Shown here piece by piece: positions 6,183 through 53,378 of a stretch of 64,000 nt of DNA. The stretch is taken from positions 434,001-498,000 of the forward strand of contig NZ_CP013655.1 of assembly GCF_001465345.1 (NCBI RefSeq), given 5' to 3'. This stretch comes from Enterococcus rotai (GTDB lineage: Bacteria > Bacillota > Bacilli > Lactobacillales > Enterococcaceae). Under the pieces are notes generated by a model that ran no database searches, had not been told where the DNA came from, and was given only the letters and a program-made list of their open reading frames with translations. The translations under genes and the position numbers were made by a program. The first letter of the stretch is position 1, and every line of letters starts with the position of its first letter.

Positions 6183-6863
6183 CTATACTTCGTTTCTTAA
6201 CATTGCTTCGTATCCATCTTTTAAAATAGCCTGTCTTGTTGTTTCGCCTAAACAGTATAGCGTCGGCATTTCCCTTAAATCAACTTCTCTAAATACCGAT
6301 AAAAATCGTTCCCACAAAGACGGACTTGCTAGATAAACTGCCGGTAGTTTTTTATCCATTAAACGTTTTTGCAGCAACAATTGATTTTCTTTTGGAAAGC
6401 AATTATCGTAAAGGATTGGCGTGAATAACCGATGTCCTTTATTGACTAGTTCTGCTTCACCAAAGCGATTGGCTAAATTGCTTTTGGGGTAAAATATCAT
6501 AGTTGGTTTTAAATAACAAGCTGACCAAGTCTCAAACAAGTTTTTTTTCGTTGCATATGGGGCTTGGAACGTTGTCTCTATATCATTAGCTAAGAGAACT
6601 TGAGCAGTCTTCTTTCCAATTACAGCGAACTTTTTCATTTCAACATCTTTTCTACTGATTTGCTGAAAAAAAAATTTGGCTGCGTGTTGACTCGTTAAAA
6701 AAATCCACTCACTTTGTTTCACCATCGTTTTAAATGATTGATCTAACGTTCTCTTTTCCAGCGCAATCAATGGGATTTCAACCGTTTCAAATCCTCTTGC
6801 CTGAAAGTATGACCGATCCTCCGCATTGTCTTCTACCAAACGAGTTAAAAGAATCGTATTCAT
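6183..6863 (-). CDS. hemD: Uroporphyrinogen-III synthase
   Basis: A 226-residue HemD-family protein, slightly shorter than the usual 240-260. Family features include the N-terminal ILLTRLVEDN strand with ARGFETVEIPLIAL, the middle EWIFLTSQHAAKFFF, and the late YLASPSLWERFL (the SPS region). It cyclises and inverts ring D of hydroxymethylbilane to give uroporphyrinogen III. Its start overlaps the hemC end by 4 bp, indicating translational coupling. HemD proteins diverge widely, so context adds weight: hemC precedes it and siroheme genes are nearby. Confidence 0.88.
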   Translation of the reverse strand: MNTILLTRLVEDNAEDRSYFQARGFETVEIPLIALEKRTLDQSFKTMVKQSEWIFLTSQHAAKFFFQQISRKDVEMKKFAVIGKKTAQVLLANDIETTFQAPYATKKNLFETWSACYLKPTMIFYPKSNLANRFGEAELVNKGHRLFTPILYDNCFPKENQLLLQKRLMDKKLPAVYLASPSLWERFLSVFREVDLREMPTLYCLGETTRQAILKDGYEAMLRNEV

Positions 6864-7768
6864 AGTGAATCCCGCTCCATTTCATTTAGTAACGCTATCG
6901 CTATCTGCTTTCCAATGCCGTTTATATCTTGGACAGTTATACTTTTGATAAAGGACTGTTCTAACTCTTTATCTCCTAAAAATCCTGAAAACTGATAGCC
7001 ATTTTGTTTTTGAACAGCGAAAGCTCCAATAGGAATATCGCAATTTCCATTTAACATCGCCAAAAAATCACGCTCTTCCATGACTAATTTTCTTGTTAAC
7101 GAATCATCGATTGGGTTTAAAAAATCGTTCATCTCTTGATCTTGACTACGACATTCTACAGCTAAAGCGCCTTGTCCTACAGCTGGAATACACTGCTCAC
7201 AGCTTAAAACAAGATAAGGATGTGTAGGTTCATCAAACCAATTCAATCGTTTTAAACCAGCTACTGCTAAAACAATGCCATCTAGATTTTGTTCTTCCAT
7301 CCGTTTCAAACGCGTTCCTACGTTCCCTCGAATCGATTCCACTTGAATATCTTCCCGTAAATTTTTCATTTGAAATTCTCGCCGCAAACTACTCGTTCCA
7401 ATTCTAGCACCGTTGGGCAACGCCTCTAAAGAATTCACTTCTCTAAAAATCAAACAATCAGCCGGATCGCTTCTCTCTGGAATCGCAGCTAACGTCAATC
7501 CATCCGCGACTTTTGCTGGCATGTCTTTTAAACTATGGACCGCAAAATCGATTGAGCCTCTCAATAAAGCCTGTTCTACTTCATTGATGAATAATCCCTT
7601 CCCGCCAATTTTAGACAAACTGACTGAAAGCATTTGGTCTCCTTTGGTCGTCATCGGGACGATCTCAACTGGAAAATCACCATGAACTTCTTTCAGTAAA
7701 TCTATTACGATCATGGTTTGCTTCATTGCTAAAGGACTATTTCTGGTGCCGACACAGACGGTTTTCAT
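6860..7768 (-). CDS. hemC: Hydroxymethylbilane synthase (porphobilinogen deaminase)
   Basis: A 302-residue protein, full length for HemC. It contains the substrate-binding stretch GTRNSPLAMKQ, HSLKDMP, the signature RGNVGTRLKRM and LNGNCDIPIGAFA, whose Cys carries the dipyrromethane cofactor. It polymerises four porphobilinogens into hydroxymethylbilane in the cytosol. It is coupled to hemD and follows the nitrite-transporter gene by 47 bp. Together with the siroheme genes nearby this is best read as a dedicated siroheme branch. Genes making porphobilinogen (hemA, hemL, hemB) are not in the window. Confidence 0.95.
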   Translation of the reverse strand: MKTVCVGTRNSPLAMKQTMIVIDLLKEVHGDFPVEIVPMTTKGDQMLSVSLSKIGGKGLFINEVEQALLRGSIDFAVHSLKDMPAKVADGLTLAAIPERSDPADCLIFREVNSLEALPNGARIGTSSLRREFQMKNLREDIQVESIRGNVGTRLKRMEEQNLDGIVLAVAGLKRLNWFDEPTHPYLVLSCEQCIPAVGQGALAVECRSQDQEMNDFLNPIDDSLTRKLVMEERDFLAMLNGNCDIPIGAFAVQKQNGYQFSGFLGDKELEQSFIKSITVQDINGIGKQIAIALLNEMERDSL

Positions 7769-42490: not shown

Positions 42491-43135
42491 TCATTCCTTT
42501 TGATTGTTATTAAGAAAATGTCCTAAATTCTTATTTTTAAAAATAATTTTTTCTATTTGAAGCTCTTCCTTACTACCTTGCCATAACGATAATTCATCCA
42601 TAATTTTTTCAGGATATTTTTTACTGATATCCCTTAGCGCATTTCCGCATGATTTTCTGACGTATTCACTGTCGTCATTTTTAAGTGTTGACAGCAAACG
42701 GATAGCACTATCAGGATTATCTTTAAAATAAGGACGGCTCGTCCAAATTCTTAACCCTTCTGAAACAGCTCTTCTAGTATTACTATTTTCAAAGTTTAAC
42801 CATTCTTTTATCGTCACTAGCGCTTCTTCATAGCCTATTTCTTTACAAAAATGATCAAATGCCATCCCTAAAATTTCTTGCACTCGCCAATTGTCATCTT
42901 TTGAGACATTCTTTTTCAAGAAATTTAATACCTCACGATTGTTTGATGCACGCTTTCCAAACAGAAAAACAGCAACCATTCGTATTTGATAAATTTCAGA
43001 TGCATATAACGTAAATGCTAGCTCCTCTAATTCCTTTTCTGTCCGCTCTTTTTCAAGTGAATCGGCTAAGTGTTCCATTGGTTTAAATCCATTAGGAACG
43101 TTGGCTATTTCTTTCAACTCTTCTTCTAACGTCAT
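42491..43135 (-). CDS. AlkC/AlkD-like HEAT-repeat DNA glycosylase
   Basis: A 214-residue all-helical HEAT-like repeat protein. DNWRVQEILGMAFDHFC, EWLNFENSNTRRAVSEGLRIW followed by RPYF, and DDSEYVRKSCGNALRDISKKYPE correspond to AlkC-type repeats (WRVRE, RRxxSEGxR, YVRxSxxNxLxDI). These glycosylases remove positively charged alkylated bases without base flipping. It is somewhat shorter than full AlkC proteins. Its linkage to fetAB suggests a stress setting (iron and DNA damage); that is inference. Confidence 0.72.
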   Translation of the reverse strand: MTLEEELKEIANVPNGFKPMEHLADSLEKERTEKELEELAFTLYASEIYQIRMVAVFLFGKRASNNREVLNFLKKNVSKDDNWRVQEILGMAFDHFCKEIGYEEALVTIKEWLNFENSNTRRAVSEGLRIWTSRPYFKDNPDSAIRLLSTLKNDDSEYVRKSCGNALRDISKKYPEKIMDELSLWQGSKEELQIEKIIFKNKNLGHFLNNNQKE

Positions 43136-43513
43136 TTTATGCTCCTTTCACTTTTCTGGTTACTTTGAGAAAAAATCAGTTCAACTATATTTTCTGACAG
43201 TTTGCTTGTCTTCATGCTATTCACTCACTACCAAAGAATCGCTCCTAAAATAGTTTATATAATTAGTATAAAACAAAAAAACTGTAAACAAAACTCCCGA
43301 TTTAGAAGTTTGTCTACAGTATGATGCTACACAGTGTCTACTTAGCTCTCGGAGTTTAACTCTTTTCTACCAAAAGCATCGCTGTTGCCCTTAAACTATC
43401 AAGTTCCTTTTACAAATACTTATCTTCTTTCCAAAATTCACTTTCTCTAAATAAAAAATTTCTCTATCTTTGGAATCCACTTGATGACTCTGTATATAAA
43501 TGCTTTTTCATAT
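43136..43513. other. Non-coding gap between mga and alk operon
   Basis: 378 bp with no credible gene. It holds the leader of the minus-strand operon to its left and the terminator at 43273-43320. The remainder, to the Mga-type stop, is AT-rich without clear structure. Confidence 0.6.
43273..43320 (-). terminator. Terminator of Mga-type regulator
   Basis: Minus-strand arms ACTGTAGACAAACT and AGTTTTGTTTACAGT (one bulge) with an 11-nt loop and a seven-T tail. About 190 bp past the stop at 43514. Confidence 0.75.
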
Positions 43514-45031
43514 TTAAGTATGAGGATATCTAATCTTCATTTTATATTTTTGGGTGTAAATTGTATCTAGATATGTAGTGAGTCGATTAATTTTTTCTTG
43601 ATCAATCGTTGAATCCCAAACAAAAGTAGGGATATCTTTTTTTAGCCATCTAGTCAAGCTAACATCCGTAACCAAAAAGTCAACCTTGTTAGAAGTGTAA
43701 GGTAGGAAAGTCACTGGAAATGAAAGGTTCTTAATCAACATCTCTTCAAAAAATTCTTTTTGAAACACACTAGAGTGAGAATAGAGCGCAATATTTAAAG
43801 CTGGACGTTTACTTTTCATTAATTCCGAAATAAGTAGCAAATAGAACGTACATAGCGCATCTTTTTGAGCATATAAAGGCTCTATAATAGTAACAGAAAA
43901 GAGCGTATCCAAAAAAGATAGAATAAGTTTATACTCGATAAATAAATCTATTTTCCCATAAGACGTATTCGTAAAACAAGGGACCGTTTCCACAGGACCA
44001 GGTAAATACAAATATCTACTATGGAGTGAAAGTAAATTGTAATAAAGATAAAAATATTCATTAACATCTAAAGCAATCTCGAGTTCAGCCATAAATCTCT
44101 CTATCCATTTTTCAGTAATCAAAGTAGCAGTATTTATTTTTAATCCAGAAAAGGCAGTTAATTTCAAAGTTGAAATTTGTTTTAATGGATAGATTTGGCT
44201 TGTAATGAGCGAAAAATATAAAAAGTTGGCTTCATAATGCCAAGTTTCCTCATCTAGCGTCAATAAAATCTGAAAATCTTTAGAAAAACCAAAAAAAAGA
44301 GAATAAAATTGTTCTTTGGAGAGCATAGGAAAAGCTGGCTCATTAAATTCATATTCTTCAGTAATGAAATAGCCCTTGTCGATACGGGACAATGTGACCG
44401 CAAGCCAAATAATTACCATGTTTGGCTTTGCTAAAAAAGTTTTTAGTTCCTCGTCACTTTTTTCAATTACCTCTTTTAGTTTATTAAATTCAATTTCCTC
44501 GAATGGCCATTTTAATACCTTGTAAGATTCCCAAAATAATGTGAAGTAAAAAAACCGAATGTTCTGTTCTTTACCCACGATACTATTAGACGTTTTTAAA
44601 TCTAAACTTAAATTGTATTGCTGTAAAATTTGGTTTAGTTTTTTTGTTTGTCGATAAACAGTCGAGTAACTGTAAAAATACTTTGTCGCAAAACTATGTA
44701 AATCAAAGAAAGTACTATTGTAAATTTCAAGACAAAGATTAAATAAAATCGACTTTTCCAAATAATAAAGTAGAAAGTAATTGATATCGAAATCCTGTGC
44801 AACCGTCACAGTCAACGTATTATCATCATTTAAAACAATAGATATGTATTTTTCACACTCTAATTGTTTACTATCATTTACTAAAGACTTTAGGTTTTTG
44901 ATAATAGTTCGTCTGTCTTTCGATAATTTGTTTGTGAAATCCGAAATAGACATAACCATATTATTCCCTCGTGGAAAGCTATTTAATATCTCTAAGCGAA
45001 AGACAAATTCCTTATTTAGTAGTACTTTCAT
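43514..45031 (-). CDS. Mga-family transcriptional regulator
   Basis: A 505-residue protein: two N-terminal helix-turn-helix segments (SISDFTNKLSKDRRTIIKNLKSL and FATKYFYSYSTVYRQTKKLNQIL, as in Mga), a PRD-like middle and a C-terminal EIIB-like Mga domain (IALYSHSSVFQKEFFEEMLI). Mga-type regulators control surface proteins in streptococci and enterococci. The ATG at 45031 has AAGGGGAT upstream; a TTG two codons earlier is less likely. It sits just beyond the WxL operon end, so that operon is a plausible target (inference). Confidence 0.8.
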   Translation of the reverse strand: MKVLLNKEFVFRLEILNSFPRGNNMVMSISDFTNKLSKDRRTIIKNLKSLVNDSKQLECEKYISIVLNDDNTLTVTVAQDFDINYFLLYYLEKSILFNLCLEIYNSTFFDLHSFATKYFYSYSTVYRQTKKLNQILQQYNLSLDLKTSNSIVGKEQNIRFFYFTLFWESYKVLKWPFEEIEFNKLKEVIEKSDEELKTFLAKPNMVIIWLAVTLSRIDKGYFITEEYEFNEPAFPMLSKEQFYSLFFGFSKDFQILLTLDEETWHYEANFLYFSLITSQIYPLKQISTLKLTAFSGLKINTATLITEKWIERFMAELEIALDVNEYFYLYYNLLSLHSRYLYLPGPVETVPCFTNTSYGKIDLFIEYKLILSFLDTLFSVTIIEPLYAQKDALCTFYLLLISELMKSKRPALNIALYSHSSVFQKEFFEEMLIKNLSFPVTFLPYTSNKVDFLVTDVSLTRWLKKDIPTFVWDSTIDQEKINRLTTYLDTIYTQKYKMKIRYPHT

Positions 45032-45037
45032 GAACAA

Positions 45038-45686
45038 TTATCCCCTTAATATGTGCTGGAAACTTATTATTATTAATTATTACTTTTAGAACAAATTTAG
45101 CTCTTTGAAAAATAACTCCATCAAATAGAGTAAGAAATGACTATGATTGTGTAAAGACAAGAAAATTTTCTTACAACAATTACTAGAATTTAGTCTGTTG
45201 CTGATGAAGTTAACATGTTATACATTGAAACTATTCCTCAGTTTGGAACGATCCAATCAACTCCGTTTTCTCAGAACTAGATACCTCTATCCATAAATCT
45301 AGTTATTTTTTAGGTACTAAAAATCATCTTTCCAAAAGAGACTCACCTTATTTATATCTAGTTATTTGTTAGACTGCTTTCGTTGCTTTTCAAAGAAATC
45401 CTACGTTATCTGCTTATTACCCATCGCAGAACATCCCATATTGATGTTGTTAATCTCAAATTGGTGAGTATCATTTTCGCAATTTGGGTAACAGATAAAC
45501 TTTATGAAGTAAAATTATCTGCTAAAACTGGCGCCTAATTTTTTTCTATGCAGCTAGCTAGGCTTATTTGTGTTACTCTAAAATTGAAGAATAAATACCA
45601 TTAGAAATAATCAACTATTCACTTTAGTTTTTTTATAGCGGACTATTTTCCAAAGAGTCAAGTAAGTATCTATGCTAGTTTTTTAC
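45038..45686. other. Non-coding gap between WxL operon and Mga-type gene
   Basis: About 650 bp, AT-rich, with no gene I can support. It contains a near-direct repeat, ATCTAGTTATTT (about 45297 and 45356). A 57-codon plus-strand open stretch ending at about 45538 lacks a start and RBS; I treat it as chance or decayed sequence. The Mga-type promoter must lie at its left end. No strong hairpin terminator for the WxL operon was found here. Confidence 0.5.
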
Positions 45687-46373
45687 TCAAACATTCAATA
45701 TATACCCTTTTGACCGCACCGTACGAATTGTTTCTGCGGTACCGATCTCTTGTTCAAATTTTTGCCGGATATGAAAAATTAAATTGCTGATACGATAAAA
45801 ATTTCGTTCTTTGTTCTCCTCTTCCCAAATTACTTTGTACATCTCTTCATAAGTAACGGTTTTACCAATATTTTTATACAGTAATTCCATGGCTTTATAC
45901 TCAAGATTAGTTAATTGAACCTCTTCATTCTCATTCATAATGACACTTCTATTTCTATGATTTAAAATAATTCCCTCACAACTATGTTCTTGTACTGTTC
46001 TTTCAGGCTCTAATTTTACCGTTACCCTTTTTCGTTTTAACGAATTAGAGACGATCAACTGCCATTCTTCTAGTTTCAAACTCTCTGTTTTTACACCATC
46101 TGCTCCTAGTTTCAAATACACTATTCGATTCATCTCATTTTGAAATGCAGACCACACCCAAATCAATGAATCTGCTTCGTTTTTTACTTGTATCAACTGT
46201 CCGCAAACTTCACCAACTTGTTCTAAGCTATTTTCTATTAAAATGATCAAATCACAAAAGGTCTTGTTATCATTATCAATCTGAATTAATTCCCATTCAT
46301 TTGGTATGACCGCTTGTAACTGTTCCCATTCCGTTGTTGCTCCTTCAAAATTTACTACGCCAATACGATACAT
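45687..46373 (-). CDS. Winged-helix regulator with degenerate receiver domain
   Basis: A 228-residue protein shaped like an OmpR-family response regulator. The C-terminal 100 residues are a good Trans_reg_C winged helix (EEVQLTNLEYKAMELLYKNIGKTVTYEEMYKVIW, IRTVRSKGYIL). The N-terminal domain has receiver-like strands but no acidic pocket; where the phospho-Asp is expected it reads CDLIILIEN. It would therefore act without phosphorylation. It is the last gene of the WxL operon, 45 bp after the signal-peptidase homologue, and no kinase is nearby. Confidence 0.82.
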   Translation of the reverse strand: MYRIGVVNFEGATTEWEQLQAVIPNEWELIQIDNDNKTFCDLIILIENSLEQVGEVCGQLIQVKNEADSLIWVWSAFQNEMNRIVYLKLGADGVKTESLKLEEWQLIVSNSLKRKRVTVKLEPERTVQEHSCEGIILNHRNRSVIMNENEEVQLTNLEYKAMELLYKNIGKTVTYEEMYKVIWEEENKERNFYRISNLIFHIRQKFEQEIGTAETIRTVRSKGYILNV

Positions 46374-46418
46374 GTCTACCCCTCCAATAGAAATTTTTTC
46401 TTTTGATTTATCGCTACT

Positions 46419-47027
46419 TTAGTAAGCTCTAATCTGGTAAAATGGCCACCAGCGTAATTCCACAATCCCTATCACAGCTCGCTCATCAACCAAACCATAG
46501 TAACGACTATCAGTGGCATAATGACGATTGTCTCCAAGTACGAGATACTTCCCTTTCGGAATTATCCCATCTTTTGTTTCTAATATATCAGTTGAATCAA
46601 AATCCTCAGTAATTACTTCATCTTCTATTTTTGCTTGTGCCAACTTTCTCTGAAAAAAACGCTCTACAACCAACCGATCATCAATATAAAGTTCGTCATT
46701 ACGGTAACTGACTTGTTCTTGCGGTAAGCCTATGACCCTACGAATTGAAGTCCCCTTTCCATTTGGCTGCTTAAAATAAATCAGCGAGAAACGCTTTGGC
46801 TTACCTAGGCGATCAACATAAACACGGTCTCCGTCATTGAGTGCTTCCCGCATGCCATAGCCTTCATTTTTAGGCAACACAAAGATCACTTTAGATAAAA
46901 CGAATAATAACAACAACACAATCAACAATGTTATCCCAAGTTCTTTACTGATTTCTTGAAGAAAGTGTTTTTTCTTATTTTTCTTCCTACGTTTTCTCCT
47001 ATTATTAGATATTTTTTTATTACTCAT
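46419..47027 (-). CDS. Signal peptidase I homologue lacking the Ser-Lys catalytic dyad
   Basis: A 202-residue type I signal-peptidase-like protein: a basic N-terminus, one transmembrane helix (about 31-51) and an extracellular domain. Boxes C (GDRVYVDR), D (RRVIGLPQEQV, DELYIDDRLV) and E (GDNRHYATDSRYYGLV) are intact. In box B the usual Ser-Met reads Gly58-Met59 (EGYGMREAL), and the Lys of the usual KRVIG is Arg96. Both catalytic residues are thus missing, recalling the non-catalytic SipA proteins of streptococcal pilus loci. It is probably a secretion or assembly factor for the WxL proteins. Confidence 0.88.
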   Translation of the reverse strand: MSNKKISNNRRKRRKKNKKKHFLQEISKELGITLLIVLLLLFVLSKVIFVLPKNEGYGMREALNDGDRVYVDRLGKPKRFSLIYFKQPNGKGTSIRRVIGLPQEQVSYRNDELYIDDRLVVERFFQRKLAQAKIEDEVITEDFDSTDILETKDGIIPKGKYLVLGDNRHYATDSRYYGLVDERAVIGIVELRWWPFYQIRAY

Positions 47028-47055
47028 TTAGCCTCACAATCATTCCTTAAATCCT

Positions 47056-47721
47056 TTATTTCTTTTGTTTTAGTGCCGTTTCATTCACATTGAAATAGGT
47101 AAACACTTTTTTCTGGATTGTTTGAACTTTTTTGATATCTGCTAAGTAATTTTCATAGGTTGTTTTTTCTTGCAGGCTTTCGACTGATTGATTGTTCAGA
47201 TTCAATCCCAGTTCCTTCATCTGCGAATAGTATCGGTTTAGTAGCTGTTGTCCTTCTACCGTTAATCTGGGGTCAGCGTAGCGAATGCCAAAACCTGATA
47301 GTTTAGCAGCTAGTTCCCGCATGTTTTTTCTCGTTTTCTCAACATTTTGTGTCCCTTCGATCGATTCTAATTGTTCGAATGTCTTATTTAATAAATAGTA
47401 ACCTTCTACAATGCCATCTGAATCACGATCTCCTAAATTTGTTGCTTGGTGGTAGCGGGAAAAGGCAGCTCCACCTGCTAAGGCTATGCCTAAAAGTAAG
47501 AATGTTAGCCCTAATTGAATTTGTTTTTTACCTTTTTTCATTAACATATGCACTTTTTTTTTAAGAATTCTGCGCTTTTTCCTATTTTTCGGTCGACGTT
47601 GTTTTATCTTTAGACGCTCTTTTTTTGTTAAAAAATAAGAAATCAAACAAACGATCGAGAAAATAATACAGAGGATAGCCGTTGAAAGTATCCCAATGAA
47701 TAGCCAATCTAGTATCGACAT
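47056..47721 (-). CDS. WxL-operon membrane protein with DxDxDG loop
   Basis: A 221-residue protein I cannot name. Two transmembrane helices (WLFIGILSTAILCIIFSIVCL, residues 6-26, and IQLGLTFLLLGIALAGGAAF near 69-88) flank a very basic cytosolic loop rich in Lys/Arg. The outer domain of about 130 residues starts with an EF-hand-like GDRDSDG calcium loop and is helical. The ATG at 47721 follows GGGGGAT at proper spacing. Proteins of this type recur in WxL operons; a role as membrane partner in surface assembly is inferred. Confidence 0.72.
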   Translation of the reverse strand: MSILDWLFIGILSTAILCIIFSIVCLISYFLTKKERLKIKQRRPKNRKKRRILKKKVHMLMKKGKKQIQLGLTFLLLGIALAGGAAFSRYHQATNLGDRDSDGIVEGYYLLNKTFEQLESIEGTQNVEKTRKNMRELAAKLSGFGIRYADPRLTVEGQQLLNRYYSQMKELGLNLNNQSVESLQEKTTYENYLADIKKVQTIQKKVFTYFNVNETALKQKK

Positions 47722-47825
47722 TTTTCTATCCCCCAAAGATTGGCAGTTTTAGCAATTGCCTGCTTTTAAGCTGCCATTTTTTTAATCACTAAACAACGTT
47801 GTTCGTTTAACGTTATTTAATTACA

Positions 47826-48890
47826 CTATCTTTTTTTACCTGATTTCTTTTTCTTCCTAGCTTTCTTCTTGTTCTTTTTTCTAAAGAAGCGAACTACAAA
47901 AAATAAGATCACAACGATACCTAAAACACCCAACACGATCAAAATGATCGTCATCCAATTCACTCGACTTTCTTGCAGTAAACTGACATCTTCTTGGTTA
48001 AATTTATCAGCTTCTTCATCCGTGATTTTAAATTCTTGCTCCCATTCCCACTTACCATTATTTTCCGCTGTAACTAAAATATGAGCGCGATAGTCCCCAG
48101 CTTGCATTTTCTCGCCATTCATCAACACAGGAAAATTAATTTGCGAGTTTGGTGCCATTCTCATTTTATTTTGCTTGGTATCATATAATACTTCATCCGA
48201 CTCTTTTTTCATGACTTGAACATCTACAGTCATATCATCAAGGTAGACAGGTGTTACATTTGAATAATTGATAAATACTGCGTTGCGGTAATTCTGCTGC
48301 TCTGCGAATACTGTATTAAGTTTTAACTCTGGCGTTATCACTGCGTCTGTTTCCGTTAAAATCATCCCAACTAAATAGCCGTATTCATTTTTGATCATCG
48401 CTTCTTGGCTTTCTGTTTGGCCTTTTTGGATCATGTAGATACCACCAGAAATCACTCCGTCGTATTGGGAATCCGGCATTTTTATATTTAATTTATAATC
48501 GATACTTTGGTTAGCTGGAATTTTAACCGTTTTTTCGCCTTTTACGAGATCTGCAAAATCATATTTTAGCGACTTATCTTTCTCTAGTTTTGAAGGGCCA
48601 TATTCGATGACACCGTTTGTATTGGTTTTAGCACTATTCAATGCGACTTCTACGGTGATTTCTTCTGAGGAACTATTATTCATTTTGATTGTGACTGTTT
48701 GCTCTTGACCTGGTGTCATTTTTAGGTCGTAATAACCAACTTCCTTATTATGTTGATTTTCTGGCTGAATTACTTTATATGTGAAACCACTACCGTCATC
48801 TTCTGCTGCTAATCCCGTTGTGAATAAAAAAGTACTGTTCATCCCTATGTATAGAATAATTGCCAACCACGTTAAGATTCTTTTTTTCAT
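47826..48890 (-). CDS. WxL-interacting protein (DUF916 and DUF3324)
   Basis: A 354-residue protein: signal peptide (1-29), DUF916 domain (about 35-160; FTYKVIQPENQ, GYYDLKMTPGQEQTVTIKMNN), DUF3324 domain (about 170-300; IPAN-type start, GYLVGMILTET, NYSNVTPVYLDDM, MAPNSQINFPVLMNGEKMQAGDYRAHI), a transmembrane helix (TIILIVLGVLGIVVILFFVV) and a strongly basic tail. WxLIP proteins bind WxL proteins and peptidoglycan and hold them at the surface. It lies 93 bp downstream of a WxL gene, with a hairpin in the gap. Confidence 0.93.
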   Translation of the reverse strand: MKKRILTWLAIILYIGMNSTFLFTTGLAAEDDGSGFTYKVIQPENQHNKEVGYYDLKMTPGQEQTVTIKMNNSSSEEITVEVALNSAKTNTNGVIEYGPSKLEKDKSLKYDFADLVKGEKTVKIPANQSIDYKLNIKMPDSQYDGVISGGIYMIQKGQTESQEAMIKNEYGYLVGMILTETDAVITPELKLNTVFAEQQNYRNAVFINYSNVTPVYLDDMTVDVQVMKKESDEVLYDTKQNKMRMAPNSQINFPVLMNGEKMQAGDYRAHILVTAENNGKWEWEQEFKITDEEADKFNQEDVSLLQESRVNWMTIILIVLGVLGIVVILFFVVRFFRKKNKKKARKKKKSGKKR

Positions 48891-48914
48891 GCCATACTGC
48901 CTTTCTTTTTATAT

Positions 48915-48952
48915 TAAGAACAAGTACGCCACTAATGGCGGACTTGTTCTTA
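48915..48952 (-). other. Intercistronic hairpin in WxL operon
   Basis: Arms TAAGAACAAGT/ACTTGTTCTTA with inner GCCA/TGGC pairs. There is no T-run on the minus strand, so it is likely an attenuating or mRNA-protecting hairpin that lets the upstream WxL gene be made in excess over the downstream genes. Confidence 0.6.
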
Positions 48953-48983
48953 CACTTCATTTTACTTTTACGTGTAACTTAGA

Positions 48984-49757
48984 TTATCTTGCGTCAGCGA
49001 TTGTCCATGTGATTGTTGAAGAATAGCCACTGCTTGTTGATAATTTATTGCCTGCTGAAGGAACCCATAATTTTACAGAATCTGCTTCAGTACTATCGGC
49101 CTTATCTCCAAATTGTAGGATAAATTGACCGAATCCTTTATCTGCTGCATCTTGTGTAACAAAGGTTGTTGGTGTTGTCCCATCGGTTTCAACAACTTGT
49201 GTTGCAGGAACTCCTGCAGCGTTCACTTGATTTTGATCTGCTGCATTGATTAGTTTCACATGACCAAATTTTAATTGAGCTGATTTTAATTCTTGTTTTT
49301 CTGTGTTTGTAAATTTTGTCGCTTTTGCTGTCACTGTGTGTTTATTGGGTTGGTTATCTGCACGCGTATCTTTAAATTGGACAAAGTTTGGACTTACTAC
49401 TTTTGTTCCATTTTTGTATACAATTTCAGCTGCTTGGGCTGTATATTCCCATCCATTACCAGAAGCTGGCGCTACTTTATTATCACCAAAATTCAAATCA
49501 GTTACGGCAATCACTTTTAATGGCCCTTTAGCTGGGTTAACAGTTGGCTCTGTAATTGGATTTTCAGGATCGATCGGTTTTGTTGGGTCTGTTGGATCGA
49601 TAGTGTTATCCCCACCGTCATCTTCAGTAAATTTAATTGTTCCTTTTCCGCTCCAGTTCAATGGATCCTCTGCCGCTTGAACAGCGTTTGGTAATGCTAC
49701 CGCTGCTCCTAATACTGCTAATAGCGTAGCTGCGCATAATTTGTGTGTTAATTTCAT
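48984..49757 (-). CDS. WxL-domain cell-surface protein, small
   Basis: A 257-residue secreted protein: signal peptide (1-29, ending VQAAE), a Pro/Asp-rich spacer (DPTDPTKPIDPENPITEPT) and a C-terminal WxL-type domain (VTDLNFGDNKVAP, VQFKDTRADNQ, STITWTIADAR). WxL domains attach non-covalently to peptidoglycan. The distal motif reads WTI rather than WxL, and the first motif, normally GWxL after the DTR segment, is replaced by KHTVTAKA. Binding may therefore differ from classic members. Confidence 0.88.
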   Translation of the reverse strand: MKLTHKLCAATLLAVLGAAVALPNAVQAAEDPLNWSGKGTIKFTEDDGGDNTIDPTDPTKPIDPENPITEPTVNPAKGPLKVIAVTDLNFGDNKVAPASGNGWEYTAQAAEIVYKNGTKVVSPNFVQFKDTRADNQPNKHTVTAKATKFTNTEKQELKSAQLKFGHVKLINAADQNQVNAAGVPATQVVETDGTTPTTFVTQDAADKGFGQFILQFGDKADSTEADSVKLWVPSAGNKLSTSSGYSSTITWTIADAR

Positions 49758-49785
49758 GTGTGTTTCCTCCTAAAATTTGGTTTAT

Positions 49786-50574
49786 TTATGGTAGCTCGGA
49801 TAATATCCAAGTTAACACCGTTTGGTAGTTTCCTGGTTCTTTTGCTGCTTTACCAGGTACAAATAAAGAGATAGCTTGGTTCTCATAGATTGGCTGATTA
49901 TTAAACCTTGGATCTACAATTGCATTGTTCTGTTCATCCAATTTTGGCTTTAGTGTATCTGGTCGTTTTTTATCATTGTTCACAGATGCACCGAAGATAA
50001 TCGCCCAAGTTCCATCACCCATAGTTGGTTTTGCTTCAGCTAAGTTATAAACTTCACCGATATTCAACAACCGAATGACTTCTTTAGATACTGTAGGTGC
50101 CATTGCTGGATCATTTATTGAGTTCGCCCATGATTGGTCAAACGATAACACCGTACCCTTTAATTCTTTACCTTTTTCTATATTCTGAAATTGAGTCTCT
50201 TGTTTTAATTGTAATGTCCAACCAGGACTGTCGTTTCTAAAATCCGACACTTGAATAAAATTTCCTCGCGCGCCAGTATCATCCTTGAACAGTTGCGCAT
50301 TTCCATAATATGTTTGATCTTGATTGGACATTTTTGCTTCCCCAAAATCGATTTGAGGAACAAAATCAAAACGCAATAGATTATTTGTCTTAGGGCTCTC
50401 CCCAGGATCAGCTGGTGTCCCTGGACGTTCTGGGTCCATCACTTGCACTGGATGTTTTCCATAAAATTCGATTGTGCCTTTATCAGAATAATTAGTAACA
50501 TCTGCTTTCGCTATTAGTGGACTTGTAAACACAGCTAACAACATTAGGTAACTGATGAGTGTTTTTCTTTTCAT
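49786..50574 (-). CDS. WxL-domain cell-surface protein
   Basis: A 262-residue secreted protein: signal peptide (cleavage near AKA), a short spacer with PERPGTPADPGESP, and a full WxL domain with both motifs, GWTL (FRNDSPGWTLQLKQ) and TWIL (YQTVLTWILSELP at the C-terminus). RFDFVPQIDFGEAKM is the usual domain start. An in-frame GTG lies three codons upstream, nearer the AAGGAG; the true start is one of the two. The 5' end meets the stop of the LPXTG gene. Confidence 0.9.
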   Translation of the reverse strand: MKRKTLISYLMLLAVFTSPLIAKADVTNYSDKGTIEFYGKHPVQVMDPERPGTPADPGESPKTNNLLRFDFVPQIDFGEAKMSNQDQTYYGNAQLFKDDTGARGNFIQVSDFRNDSPGWTLQLKQETQFQNIEKGKELKGTVLSFDQSWANSINDPAMAPTVSKEVIRLLNIGEVYNLAEAKPTMGDGTWAIIFGASVNNDKKRPDTLKPKLDEQNNAIVDPRFNNQPIYENQAISLFVPGKAAKEPGNYQTVLTWILSELP

Positions 50575-50575
50575 C

Positions 50576-50914
50576 TCAATCACGCTCTCCTTTCACAATG
50601 CTCCTCTTCCTAAGAAAGAAAAAAATTGCTGCAAGTATACTTAAAAAAATACCTGCGAAAAGAAAACTGATTGTTATTAAATCTCCTGTATTCGGCAACC
50701 GACCCACTGGCTTTTTCTCTCTAATTGAAGATTCATTTGTGGTTGATTCACTTGTCTGTTCTGTTTCAGTATTAGATTTTTTTAAAACGATCCCAGCGTT
50801 TGTCTGTACCTGTCCACCTTCCTCAGCTGCCCAGCCTCTATTATTCGTACCGAAAGACACGGCAAGAAAAATCAAAGGAATTAGAATAAAACGAATAATT
50901 CGATGCTTTTTCAT
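50576..50914 (-). CDS. Small LPXTG-anchored surface protein
   Basis: A 112-residue protein: signal peptide (1-30, ending GWAAE), a 45-residue Ser/Thr/Glu-rich stalk, the sortase motif LPNTGD, a hydrophobic helix (ISFLFAGIFLSILAAIFFFL) and a basic tail. Sortase A would attach it covalently to the wall. It has almost no folded ectodomain, as usual for the mini-LPXTG proteins of WxL clusters, which may act as wall anchors for partner proteins. Confidence 0.92.
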   Translation of the reverse strand: MKKHRIIRFILIPLIFLAVSFGTNNRGWAAEEGGQVQTNAGIVLKKSNTETEQTSESTTNESSIREKKPVGRLPNTGDLITISFLFAGIFLSILAAIFFFLRKRSIVKGERD

Positions 50915-50930
50915 AACAGTCTTCCCTCCA

Positions 50931-53378
50931 TTAATAGGCTTCTTCTATTTGCCAAGTCAGTGTTGTTTCGTATTTTCCTACTTGTTTAACAGACCCGACT
51001 GGTACATTCAGACGTAACCCTTGTTTTTCAGGTCCCCACGTTTCTTCACTAATATCATATTTTCCAGAAGACTGGTGTTTTGAACGGAAGACTTCTTGGG
51101 CTTCTGTCGAAATTACTTTCTCTCCATTAGTTGTCTGGTAGCTTAGGGCGTTTGGTAGTCGGTTTGACGGATCCCCTGGAATACTAAAATCTTGTGATTG
51201 CTTTAACGTGATTTTCCACGTTCCTAATGATGAACGGTTGTCCCAAATAACTAAGTGTTGATCATAATTTGGATCGTCGAATTTTTTATTTCTACTACTT
51301 ACTTTTTGATCCCCAAAATCAATTGCATTAGGGGCTGACTCAATAAACAAAGTTCCTCTAAAGGTATATTTCCTTGTGACTCCTTCTGGCACAACCAAGA
51401 GATCTTTTTCATCTAATGGCGGTGTGTTTAACATGTAATTCATCCCTTTGACTGCGCTAAGTTTTTCAAGGACTTGAACATTTTGGCTTAAATCGATACG
51501 ATCATTAATCGCTGCTTCAAAGGATAGATCATCAATGATTGGTTGATCTTTTTCATCGACAAAAGAAATTTTTACTGTTGCAAAACTTTGAGTGACAGTA
51601 ACGTGAATTGTCTTGTCTACTTTTGCGCTGTCTGCGCCATAAGACACGATTGCTTCATAGATGCCTAAGCCCGCAAGTTCAGGTGGTTTCGGTAATGTCC
51701 CAATTGTTACATTCAACTTATTTTTGTCTAGTGAATTTGCAGATACTTCATTATAATCCCACAGTTGTAACTCGGCTTTCTCCTTAATCAGAGTCAACAG
51801 TGCTGCTTCTGTTTTAGGATAATCCTTTACCCCAACACTAAAGTCTTTTCCATAGATAATATATTGACTGCTTTTAACAACTTCCTGATTTTGAATAAAA
51901 ATTGGAATCGTTACGTCACGTACGTTTCCTTTTTCATCTGTAAGAGTAACTTGGAAACTACTTGAACCGACTGCTTTCACAATATTTGTTATATCTTGTC
52001 CCGTTGTTAAATCGATCTTTATCTTATCTTTTGGTGAAAAATCATCTTCATAGTTGGATAAAAAGATACTATAGTCGGCAACTTCCGTGATTGCTTTTGT
52101 GTCCCCGATATCAATAAACGTCAATTTACCCGTTCCAACTGGTGCAGTTTTATCATACGTGATATCGTAAGCAGCCTCTTTATCTGAGATAAAGTTTTCA
52201 GCAACTGCTTGTGCTGTCAGTGTTAACTTTTTATCACCCGTTACCTCGGTATCTTTTACTTTAAACTGAATATCAACAACGGGATCTCCAACTGTTAAAT
52301 CTTTAGACAACGGAATAACTAACTCATTGTTACTATACGTTGGGGTTACAGAAATACCATTCAAAAGAAAGGTTCCTTGCTGGTATACTTGATTGGGTGA
52401 CAAGGCAAACTTAAAGCTTGGTTGAATCATGTTTTGTTTACCACCTGTATATTTCCCAGAATAACGAACGGTCACCTCTGAATCTTGGGTAGTACTTTCG
52501 ATTTTTTTCCCTTCAGTATTCATAAACTCAACATTCTCGGTGTAATTTACTAATCCTGGAACTGATTTAAACGCCACAACAGCTTTTTCAAATTCTTCAC
52601 CCGTAGAACCTGTGAATCCCCAATACACACTATCAGTACCAAAAGTACTTTTAGAAATCTCTGCTGTTACAGGATCCAAGCCTTCAAGAGCGTAGGTCAC
52701 ATATCCTTTACCAGAAGAATCAAACGCTTTCCATTCCATACTAAACAATCGCCAACGAGCATCACCTAATTTAAATTTCGGATATTGCAATCCATAATGC
52801 TCAATAGCTAAGCCATAGGCTGGCAGAAGCATATATGAACTTCTTTGATCTGGAAAACTATATGCAACATGGCCATTTCCATCATTGATAAGAACATACT
52901 TGTCATTAGACGTATTGTTATAGTAGCTATCAAACTCTATAGCAAAACTTTTCTTGAGTTGCTTTCCGTCCAGTGCAGAAGGGTTAGTAGTATAATATCT
53001 ACCTGAATAGATTCCAAAATATTCACCTACCCGACCTGAGAAATTTGATATAGCATTTTTATCGTTATGCATGACAAAAGTCATACCATCCGCTGCACCG
53101 TCAATATACAAATACATCTCTGACTTAAAATCTTGTGTCAAATCCATTTTATTTAGCTCTGTAGAAAAAATACTACCTATTTGATTCGTTTTTTTGTCTG
53201 TAATCACAACATTATTTCCCTCAACATAACTATTAGCTCCTTTGGGAGTGACAAAAATCTGATCCAAAGGAATACTATGAGGTGGTTGAACATAGTCTGA
53301 AGCCTCTGCTATTAATGGAACACAGCTTATACCAACAACTAAAGTCGTAAAAATAAGTTTTTTTACTTTACCTAACAT
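50931..53378 (-). CDS. Large WxL-domain surface protein with lectin-like domain
   Basis: An 815-residue secreted protein: signal peptide (1-26), an L-type lectin-like domain (about 45-285; DGAADGMTFVMHND, KKSFAIEFDSYYNNTSND, YWGFTGSTG), a series of beta-sandwich or bacterial-Ig-like modules, and a C-terminal WxL domain (APNAIDFGDQKVS, IWDNRSSLGTWKITL, ETTLTWQIEEAY). The EFDSYYN and GMTFVMH strings are where this fold binds Ca/Mn and sugar, so adhesion to glycans is likely. It is first in the eight-gene operon, with a GGAGGTG site. Confidence 0.9.
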   Translation of the reverse strand: MLGKVKKLIFTTLVVGISCVPLIAEASDYVQPPHSIPLDQIFVTPKGANSYVEGNNVVITDKKTNQIGSIFSTELNKMDLTQDFKSEMYLYIDGAADGMTFVMHNDKNAISNFSGRVGEYFGIYSGRYYTTNPSALDGKQLKKSFAIEFDSYYNNTSNDKYVLINDGNGHVAYSFPDQRSSYMLLPAYGLAIEHYGLQYPKFKLGDARWRLFSMEWKAFDSSGKGYVTYALEGLDPVTAEISKSTFGTDSVYWGFTGSTGEEFEKAVVAFKSVPGLVNYTENVEFMNTEGKKIESTTQDSEVTVRYSGKYTGGKQNMIQPSFKFALSPNQVYQQGTFLLNGISVTPTYSNNELVIPLSKDLTVGDPVVDIQFKVKDTEVTGDKKLTLTAQAVAENFISDKEAAYDITYDKTAPVGTGKLTFIDIGDTKAITEVADYSIFLSNYEDDFSPKDKIKIDLTTGQDITNIVKAVGSSSFQVTLTDEKGNVRDVTIPIFIQNQEVVKSSQYIIYGKDFSVGVKDYPKTEAALLTLIKEKAELQLWDYNEVSANSLDKNKLNVTIGTLPKPPELAGLGIYEAIVSYGADSAKVDKTIHVTVTQSFATVKISFVDEKDQPIIDDLSFEAAINDRIDLSQNVQVLEKLSAVKGMNYMLNTPPLDEKDLLVVPEGVTRKYTFRGTLFIESAPNAIDFGDQKVSSRNKKFDDPNYDQHLVIWDNRSSLGTWKITLKQSQDFSIPGDPSNRLPNALSYQTTNGEKVISTEAQEVFRSKHQSSGKYDISEETWGPEKQGLRLNVPVGSVKQVGKYETTLTWQIEEAY

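Follow-up and report, generated by a model that had tools for sequence, protein, structure and literature searches.

The gene studied here closes a WxL operon on the minus strand of a 64,000-nucleotide stretch of the Enterococcus rotai genome (the window). From upstream to downstream, the genes of this operon encode the large WxL protein, the LPXTG protein, the small WxL proteins b and a, WxLIP, TM226 and a pseudo-signal peptidase. The genes, and the codons of the pseudo-peptidase that matter for the argument, are located in the window as follows:

50931..53378, minus strand: large WxL protein with an L-type lectin domain (PF18483, 2.3e-23; PF13731, 8.5e-11)
50576..50914, minus strand: short LPXTG-anchored protein of the EF2685/EF0750 family (NF053819, 2.7e-19)
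49786..50583, minus strand: small WxL protein b (PF13731, 7.5e-41)
48984..49757, minus strand: small WxL protein a (PF13731, 7.4e-31)
47826..48890, minus strand: WxL-interacting protein (WxLIP), DUF916 plus DUF3324 (PF06030, 5.4e-39; PF11797, 1.5e-42)
47056..47736, minus strand: TM226, 226 residues, predicted to be all-helical with two long N-terminal helices and a helical domain
46419..47027, minus strand: pseudo-signal peptidase, 202 amino acids, final gene of the WxL operon
46857..46859, minus strand: codon of Tyr57, the aromatic residue adjoining the lost nucleophile (Tyr or Phe in 168 of 173 homologues)
46854..46856, minus strand: GGC codon of Gly58, at the position of the catalytic Ser in box B (GYGM)
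46740..46742, minus strand: CGT codon of Arg96, at the position of the catalytic Lys in box D (RRVIG versus KRVIG)
46518..46520, minus strand: codon of Tyr170 in box E (Tyr or Phe in 165 of 173 homologues)

The pseudo-signal peptidase begins with a basic tail and a single long N-terminal helix, which is probably a membrane span, and continues with the S26 domain. Both the N-terminal helix and the fold of type I signal peptidases are retained, and the protein belongs to their sequence family: Pfam Peptidase_S26 matches at 5e-33, and NCBIfam sigpep_I_bact at 8e-34 (116.8 bits, cut-off 47). The catalytic positions were assigned by alignment to solved signal peptidases. This alignment confirmed, at the same coordinates, what an earlier note on this DNA had claimed: Gly58 takes the place of the catalytic Ser, and Arg96 that of the catalytic Lys. 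The active enzymes EF3073 of E. faecalis (PDB 4me8) and SpsB of S. aureus (4wvj) thus differ from the window protein at both catalytic residues. Box E is intact (GDNRHYATDSR), and Ala171 is present where a supporting Ser would be expected, a point absent from the earlier note; we take position 171 to be that of Ser278 in E. coli LepB, a Ser that contacts the catalytic Lys. In box B, Pro61 is replaced by Glu, so that the cleft may be altered. The reading frame is open from the ATG to the stop codon, and GTGAGG is located four bases upstream of the ATG.

The Pfam matches bear out the presence of three WxL proteins in the operon, as had been proposed. Judged by eye, the signal peptides of the operon proteins are canonical, with Ala-X-Ala-like ends, and give therefore no hint of an unusual cutting need. 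TM226 had no match in Pfam or NCBIfam; its two N-terminal helices presumably cross the membrane, and its true start is probably the conserved Met6 at about 47721. It is likely that TM226 is a core, so far undescribed part of this type of WxL operon. No sortase family was found by the Pfam scan among the ten open reading frames around the pseudo-peptidase gene (42494-53378), consensus promoter and terminator scans of the region gave results near the shuffled expectation, and distance correlations across the operon proteins singled out no partner for the pseudo-peptidase. Directly downstream on the same strand, 45687-46373 encodes a response-regulator-like protein with an OmpR-type DNA-binding domain and, according to Pfam, no receiver domain. 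Since this gene has no match around the eight other operons of the same genome, it is probably no fixed part of the operon. A regulator of the AcpB/EbpR/MafR family with an Mga domain (43514-45037) is also encoded beside the WxL operon.

The E. rotai genome encodes 16 signal peptidase homologues. In nine of them, Arg stands in place of the catalytic Lys; all nine are encoded directly behind TM226 in WxL operons of the same architecture. The other seven have both Ser and Lys: four are stand-alone enzymes, and three are tandem enzymes encoded directly behind a pseudo-peptidase and upstream of a YfhO-family gene (loci L011, L012 and L013). In two further operons, YfhO directly follows the pseudo-peptidase. 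One of the nine pseudo-peptidase genes, the 3738k copy (6615-7180 of locus L015, about 3738.6-3739.2 kb in the genome), lacks a start codon upstream of box B, is shortened at its C-terminal end and is probably decaying; its operon is without a recognised small WxL protein b. WxLIP has 24 matches in the genome, including two fragments, as compared to nine pseudo-peptidase operons; WxL display as such therefore does not require the pseudo-peptidase.

A census of E. rotai and five relatives, all with genomes in one or two contigs, took in every signal peptidase match at the cut-off (115 of 115). All 59 homologues encoded behind TM226 are devoid of the catalytic Lys and have Arg (57), Gln (1) or Leu (1) instead (the truncated or decayed rows L015 with 145 amino acids and L165 with 160 amino acids are included), and 34 of them have lost the Ser as well (22 Gly, 7 Ala, 5 Met). 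Both residues are present in the tandem partners (32 of 32) and the stand-alone enzymes (24 of 24), and every dyad-less homologue of the six genomes is encoded directly behind TM226. There are 6 to 12 pseudo-peptidases per genome, and 91 of the 115 homologues belong to WxL operons. WxLIP and small WxL protein a are encoded upstream in all 59 operons, small WxL protein b in 57 and the LPXTG protein in 54. The six genomes hold 60 TM226 genes, one of which (in G007) apparently lacks a pseudo-peptidase, versus 145 WxLIP matches (fragments included); the operons described here therefore represent one class of WxL cluster, not all. An intact enzyme directly follows 32 of the 59 pseudo-peptidases, with YfhO next in each of the 32 cases, while 27, the window copy included, have no adjacent intact enzyme. 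This second, intact signal peptidase and the YfhO-family membrane protein (PF09586) form a fixed two-gene addition in about half of the operons, which points to dedicated processing and to some sugar chemistry linked to the membrane, the latter on our assumption that YfhO has a role in it.

The earlier note had raised the question whether signal peptidase homologues in other WxL operons lack the dyad as well. Beyond the census, this was answered by a wider set of 173 distinct homologues encoded directly behind TM226 in all 22 genomes of the genus and in some outside it. The set drew on the best-listed part of the 223 TM226 matches in the family (204 in the genus) as well as on 13 loci of another family and seven additional ones of the genus. 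Proteins count as distinct if their last 150 residues differ, a definition that merges recent duplicates (the 12 census copies of G002 become 10); the decayed L015 is included. No fewer than 172 of the 173 are without the full dyad. The single exception, L300, was placed by the tree among the partner-type enzymes, and its operon seems to be missing the pseudo-peptidase. At column 96, there are 163 Arg, 3 Lys, 2 Leu, 2 Gln and one each of Met, Val and Phe, and at column 58, 95 Ser, 51 Gly, 21 Ala and 6 Met. Two proteins, L320 and L322, have Lys but Ala instead of Ser; they grouped with Arg carriers in a four-member set, and their Lys may be a return after the loss of Ser. An adjacent partner enzyme is encoded in 90 of the 173 cases, each time with Ser and Lys; for 8 of the 83 cases without one, less than 900 bases of downstream sequence are available.

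In addition to the dyad, the surroundings of the active site set the pseudo-enzymes apart. Ser171 is present in 50 of the 173 pseudo-enzymes versus 90 of 90 partners. An aromatic residue occupies position 57 in 168 of the 173 but in none of the 90 partners and none of 76 homologues from outside, and position 170 in 165 of the 173 but in none of the partners and one of the 76; the exceptions (five at position 57, eight at position 170) come mostly from the other family. The 76 outside homologues were found with the same profiles in 71 other loci, where these profiles detected no WxL-operon gene: 70 have Ser and Lys, and the other six are staphylococcal SpsA proteins. In all 170 Lys-less members, Met59, Arg97, Leu113, Glu122, Asp166, Asp173 and Arg175 are invariant. 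The sole conserved Ser of these members is Ser174, which is also present in 89 of the 90 active partners. A different usable Ser/Lys pair would have contradicted the earlier note; we looked for one, and no column conserved to at least 93% in the Lys-less members holds Lys, His or Cys, so there is no replacement dyad. Taken together, the sequences strongly support the view that the window protein and its clade are catalytically dead. Finally, of about 187 distinct TM226 genes, 14 are not directly followed by a signal peptidase gene, which in one of these cases comes one gene later; the operon can therefore do without the pseudo-peptidase.

A 75-row maximum-likelihood tree calculated without the trait columns united the pseudo-enzymes in a single clade (SH-aLRT 99) and placed the tandem partners elsewhere, together with the stand-alone 1768k type (SH-aLRT 100). 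A tree forcing pseudo-enzymes and partners together was rejected with a p-AU of 0.033, for a group that was named after the tree had been seen. A common origin of the pseudo-enzymes and SpsA was not rejected (p-AU 0.447). On a 299-row FastTree, one label change accounts for the pseudo clade if L300 is set aside, and inside the clade position 58 switched between Ser and other residues at least 23 times, counts that give no direction. Because the Arg is near-fixed, we infer that Lys was lost first and Ser later. The window gene was compared pairwise with the paralogue nearest to it and with closely related genes from three other genomes. Nine of the ten pairs gave a dN/dS of 0.05-0.16, rough values since dS was often high; the tenth pair was saturated at synonymous sites. 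These values reveal purifying selection rather than decay. Together with the open frame, the GTGAGG motif upstream of the start and the substitutions that recur across the clade, they uphold the earlier statement that the gene is not decaying.

TM226 is present in all 22 genomes of the genus, with 5-15 copies each, and every one of these genomes has at least one dyad-less signal peptidase homologue among a total of 12 to 26 (G000-G021, E <= 1e-30). Enterococcus crotali, E. termitis, E. rivorum and Vagococcus allomyrinae are among the named carriers. In the family, TM226 was found in 32 of 105 genomes, and among 395 genomes drawn from the order in 36: 25 of the same family, 10 of one other family and one weak match (6e-6) elsewhere. 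Of 13 loci from this other family, 8 have a pseudo-peptidase gene immediately after that of TM226, with Arg at the Lys position in seven and Val in one; the remaining 5 have none. A mobilizable plasmid of Enterococcus wangshanyuanii (L325) carries a WxL cluster with BspA-type leucine-rich surface proteins near an IS21 element; no signal peptidase is annotated beside its TM226-like gene (33% identity over 60%).

Two inactive signal peptidase homologues offer themselves for comparison. Streptococcal SipA (PDB 4n31) has the S26 fold without the Ser-Lys dyad, as does the window protein. According to the available part of PMC4049620, SipA has retained its cleft, pilus polymerisation requires the protein, its mechanism is called unknown, and binding experiments gave no partner. 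The same text places SipA in a sortase pilus operon with a class B sortase, whereas the window gene belongs to a WxL operon that has no sortase gene next to it. At its dyad positions, SipA is described there as varying between species; Arg96, in contrast, is found in 163 of the 173 WxL pseudo-enzymes. That this Arg and the two aromatic residues are near-fixed, unlike in SipA, argues that the old active site still does something. By profile comparison alone, the pseudo-peptidases are nearer to active enzymes than to SipA: a profile of eight members matched SipA weakly (3e-5 over 36 positions), as compared to 5e-41 to 5e-37 for active enzymes of Gram-positive bacteria and about 1e-13 for the E. 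coli enzyme. WxL operons may have recruited the pseudo-peptidase independently, as the earlier note suggested, yet descent shared with SpsA is not rejected. The second case is staphylococcal SpsA, a dead homologue encoded directly upstream of the active SpsB and listed as inactive and dispensable in the part of PMC12445088 available to us. All six SpsA proteins lack the Lys, but it is replaced by Gly or Ser rather than Arg, and there is no aromatic residue at position 57; no WxL genes were found at the six loci. Unlike spsA, the window gene is not directly followed by the gene of an active signal peptidase.

The WxL/Csc clusters described in PMC9772566, PMC10599100 and PMC1534035 likewise contain large and small WxL proteins, DUF916-DUF3324 proteins and short LPXTG proteins; in the available portions of these papers, no TM226-like protein or signal peptidase homologue is seen among the cluster members. 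The word "peptidase" does not occur in the portions of PMC9772566 and PMC10599100, and the two occurrences in that of PMC1534035 both refer to normal signal-peptide removal. Similarly, among the open-licence PubMed Central papers listed, titles and abstract openings yielded no description of this pseudo-peptidase.

Our work suggests that the window protein belongs to a dyad-less pseudoprotease subfamily of one class of WxL operon, and that it probably serves as a membrane-bound, non-catalytic, peptide-binding assembly factor. This is the best reading of a protein that retains its fold, its N-terminal helix and strong constraint without the chemistry; the dyad-less homologues of the census are always encoded behind TM226, whereas a cutting partner is optional. 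By analogy, the pseudo-peptidase most likely works like SipA; membership in SipA is not claimed. An ancestral signal peptidase, kin of the stand-alone type rather than of the tandem partners, would have been captured behind TM226. It would have lost its general base by the exchange of Lys for Arg, probably once and early, and the nucleophile would then have drifted many times from Ser to Gly, Ala or Met. The S26 fold and the N-terminal helix were kept, and the mouth of the active site would have been rebuilt with two aromatic residues and the Arg. At the membrane next to TM226, the protein would bind without cutting a peptide segment of the secreted proteins of the operon, be it the signal-peptide end, a linker or the sorting-signal region, and these proteins would thereby be held or ordered while the complex of WxL proteins, WxLIP and the LPXTG protein forms. 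Cutting would be left to the ordinary enzymes, i. e. the four stand-alone enzymes in E. rotai and the dedicated intact tandem enzyme in about half of the operons. These enzymes have their Ser-Lys dyads; their substrates are presumably the proteins of the operon.

Alternatively, the pseudo-peptidase might be a regulatory subunit that pairs with the intact tandem or housekeeping signal peptidase and steers its choice of substrates. The frequent presence of an intact enzyme directly behind it (for 32 of the 59 census proteins and 90 of the 173 from the wider survey, all 90 with Ser and Lys) would fit this idea, as would the same order of dead and active enzyme in the staphylococcal loci. We consider it unlikely, however: 27 of the 59 and 83 of the 173, the window copy among them, have no adjacent enzyme, and in a 160-protein set Ser is lost about as often in the presence of a partner (43 of 90) as where none was seen (31 of 70). 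Moreover, the two proteins of a tandem pair come from different lineages rather than from a local duplication, as judged from the p-AU of 0.033 for the group defined post hoc. An inhibitor or decoy, which would delay the cutting of preproteins by binding them or slow the active enzyme by binding it, would agree with a fold that is kept under purifying selection without the catalytic dyad; yet nothing in the data is specific to inhibition, the idea overlaps with the assembly model, and we regard it as rather improbable.

Two further explanations have very little in their favour. The protein could still be an enzyme if Arg96 or a nearby group activated Ser58 in those members that retain it, as 95 of the 173 do. 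However, Arg is a poor general base, 78 of the 173, among them the window protein, have no Ser in the same operon context, and the supporting Ser171 is missing in 123 of the 173 but in none of the 90 tandem enzymes, so that residual catalysis is highly improbable. Just as improbable is a relic, a redundant signal peptidase that drifts after a duplication and is retained by linkage alone: even if one of the nine E. rotai copies, the 3738k copy, looks decayed, the low dN/dS of 0.05-0.16, the seven residues invariant in 170 of 170 Lys-less members and the dyad-less proteins in every one of the 22 genomes of the genus speak against it.

A dead signal peptidase as a surface-assembly factor is already known; what is unusual here is the copy number, the fixed place in the operon and the conserved new residues in the active site. 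Beside SipA and SpsA, there is now a large family of dead signal peptidases that is tied to one type of operon. As its natural members combine several replacements of the Ser with a near-fixed Arg, a non-catalytic role of the signal peptidase fold becomes readable from an alignment. Moreover, two parts are added to the WxL surface clusters, the pseudo-peptidase and TM226, for neither of which a description was found in the available portions of the literature searched. Starting from the assembly factor proposed above, it is tempting to speculate, if only tentatively, that the former active site now serves as a specific pocket for recognition without cutting, formed by Arg96, Tyr57 and Tyr170, that the protein and TM226 make up a membrane platform which receives the secreted proteins, and that about half of the operons extend this platform with an intact signal peptidase of other ancestry and YfhO. 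If this is true, these bacteria would possess a modular machine for the assembly, and perhaps the glycosylation, of WxL complexes, which would be repeated 6 to 12 times per cell with a private pseudo-peptidase for each complex.
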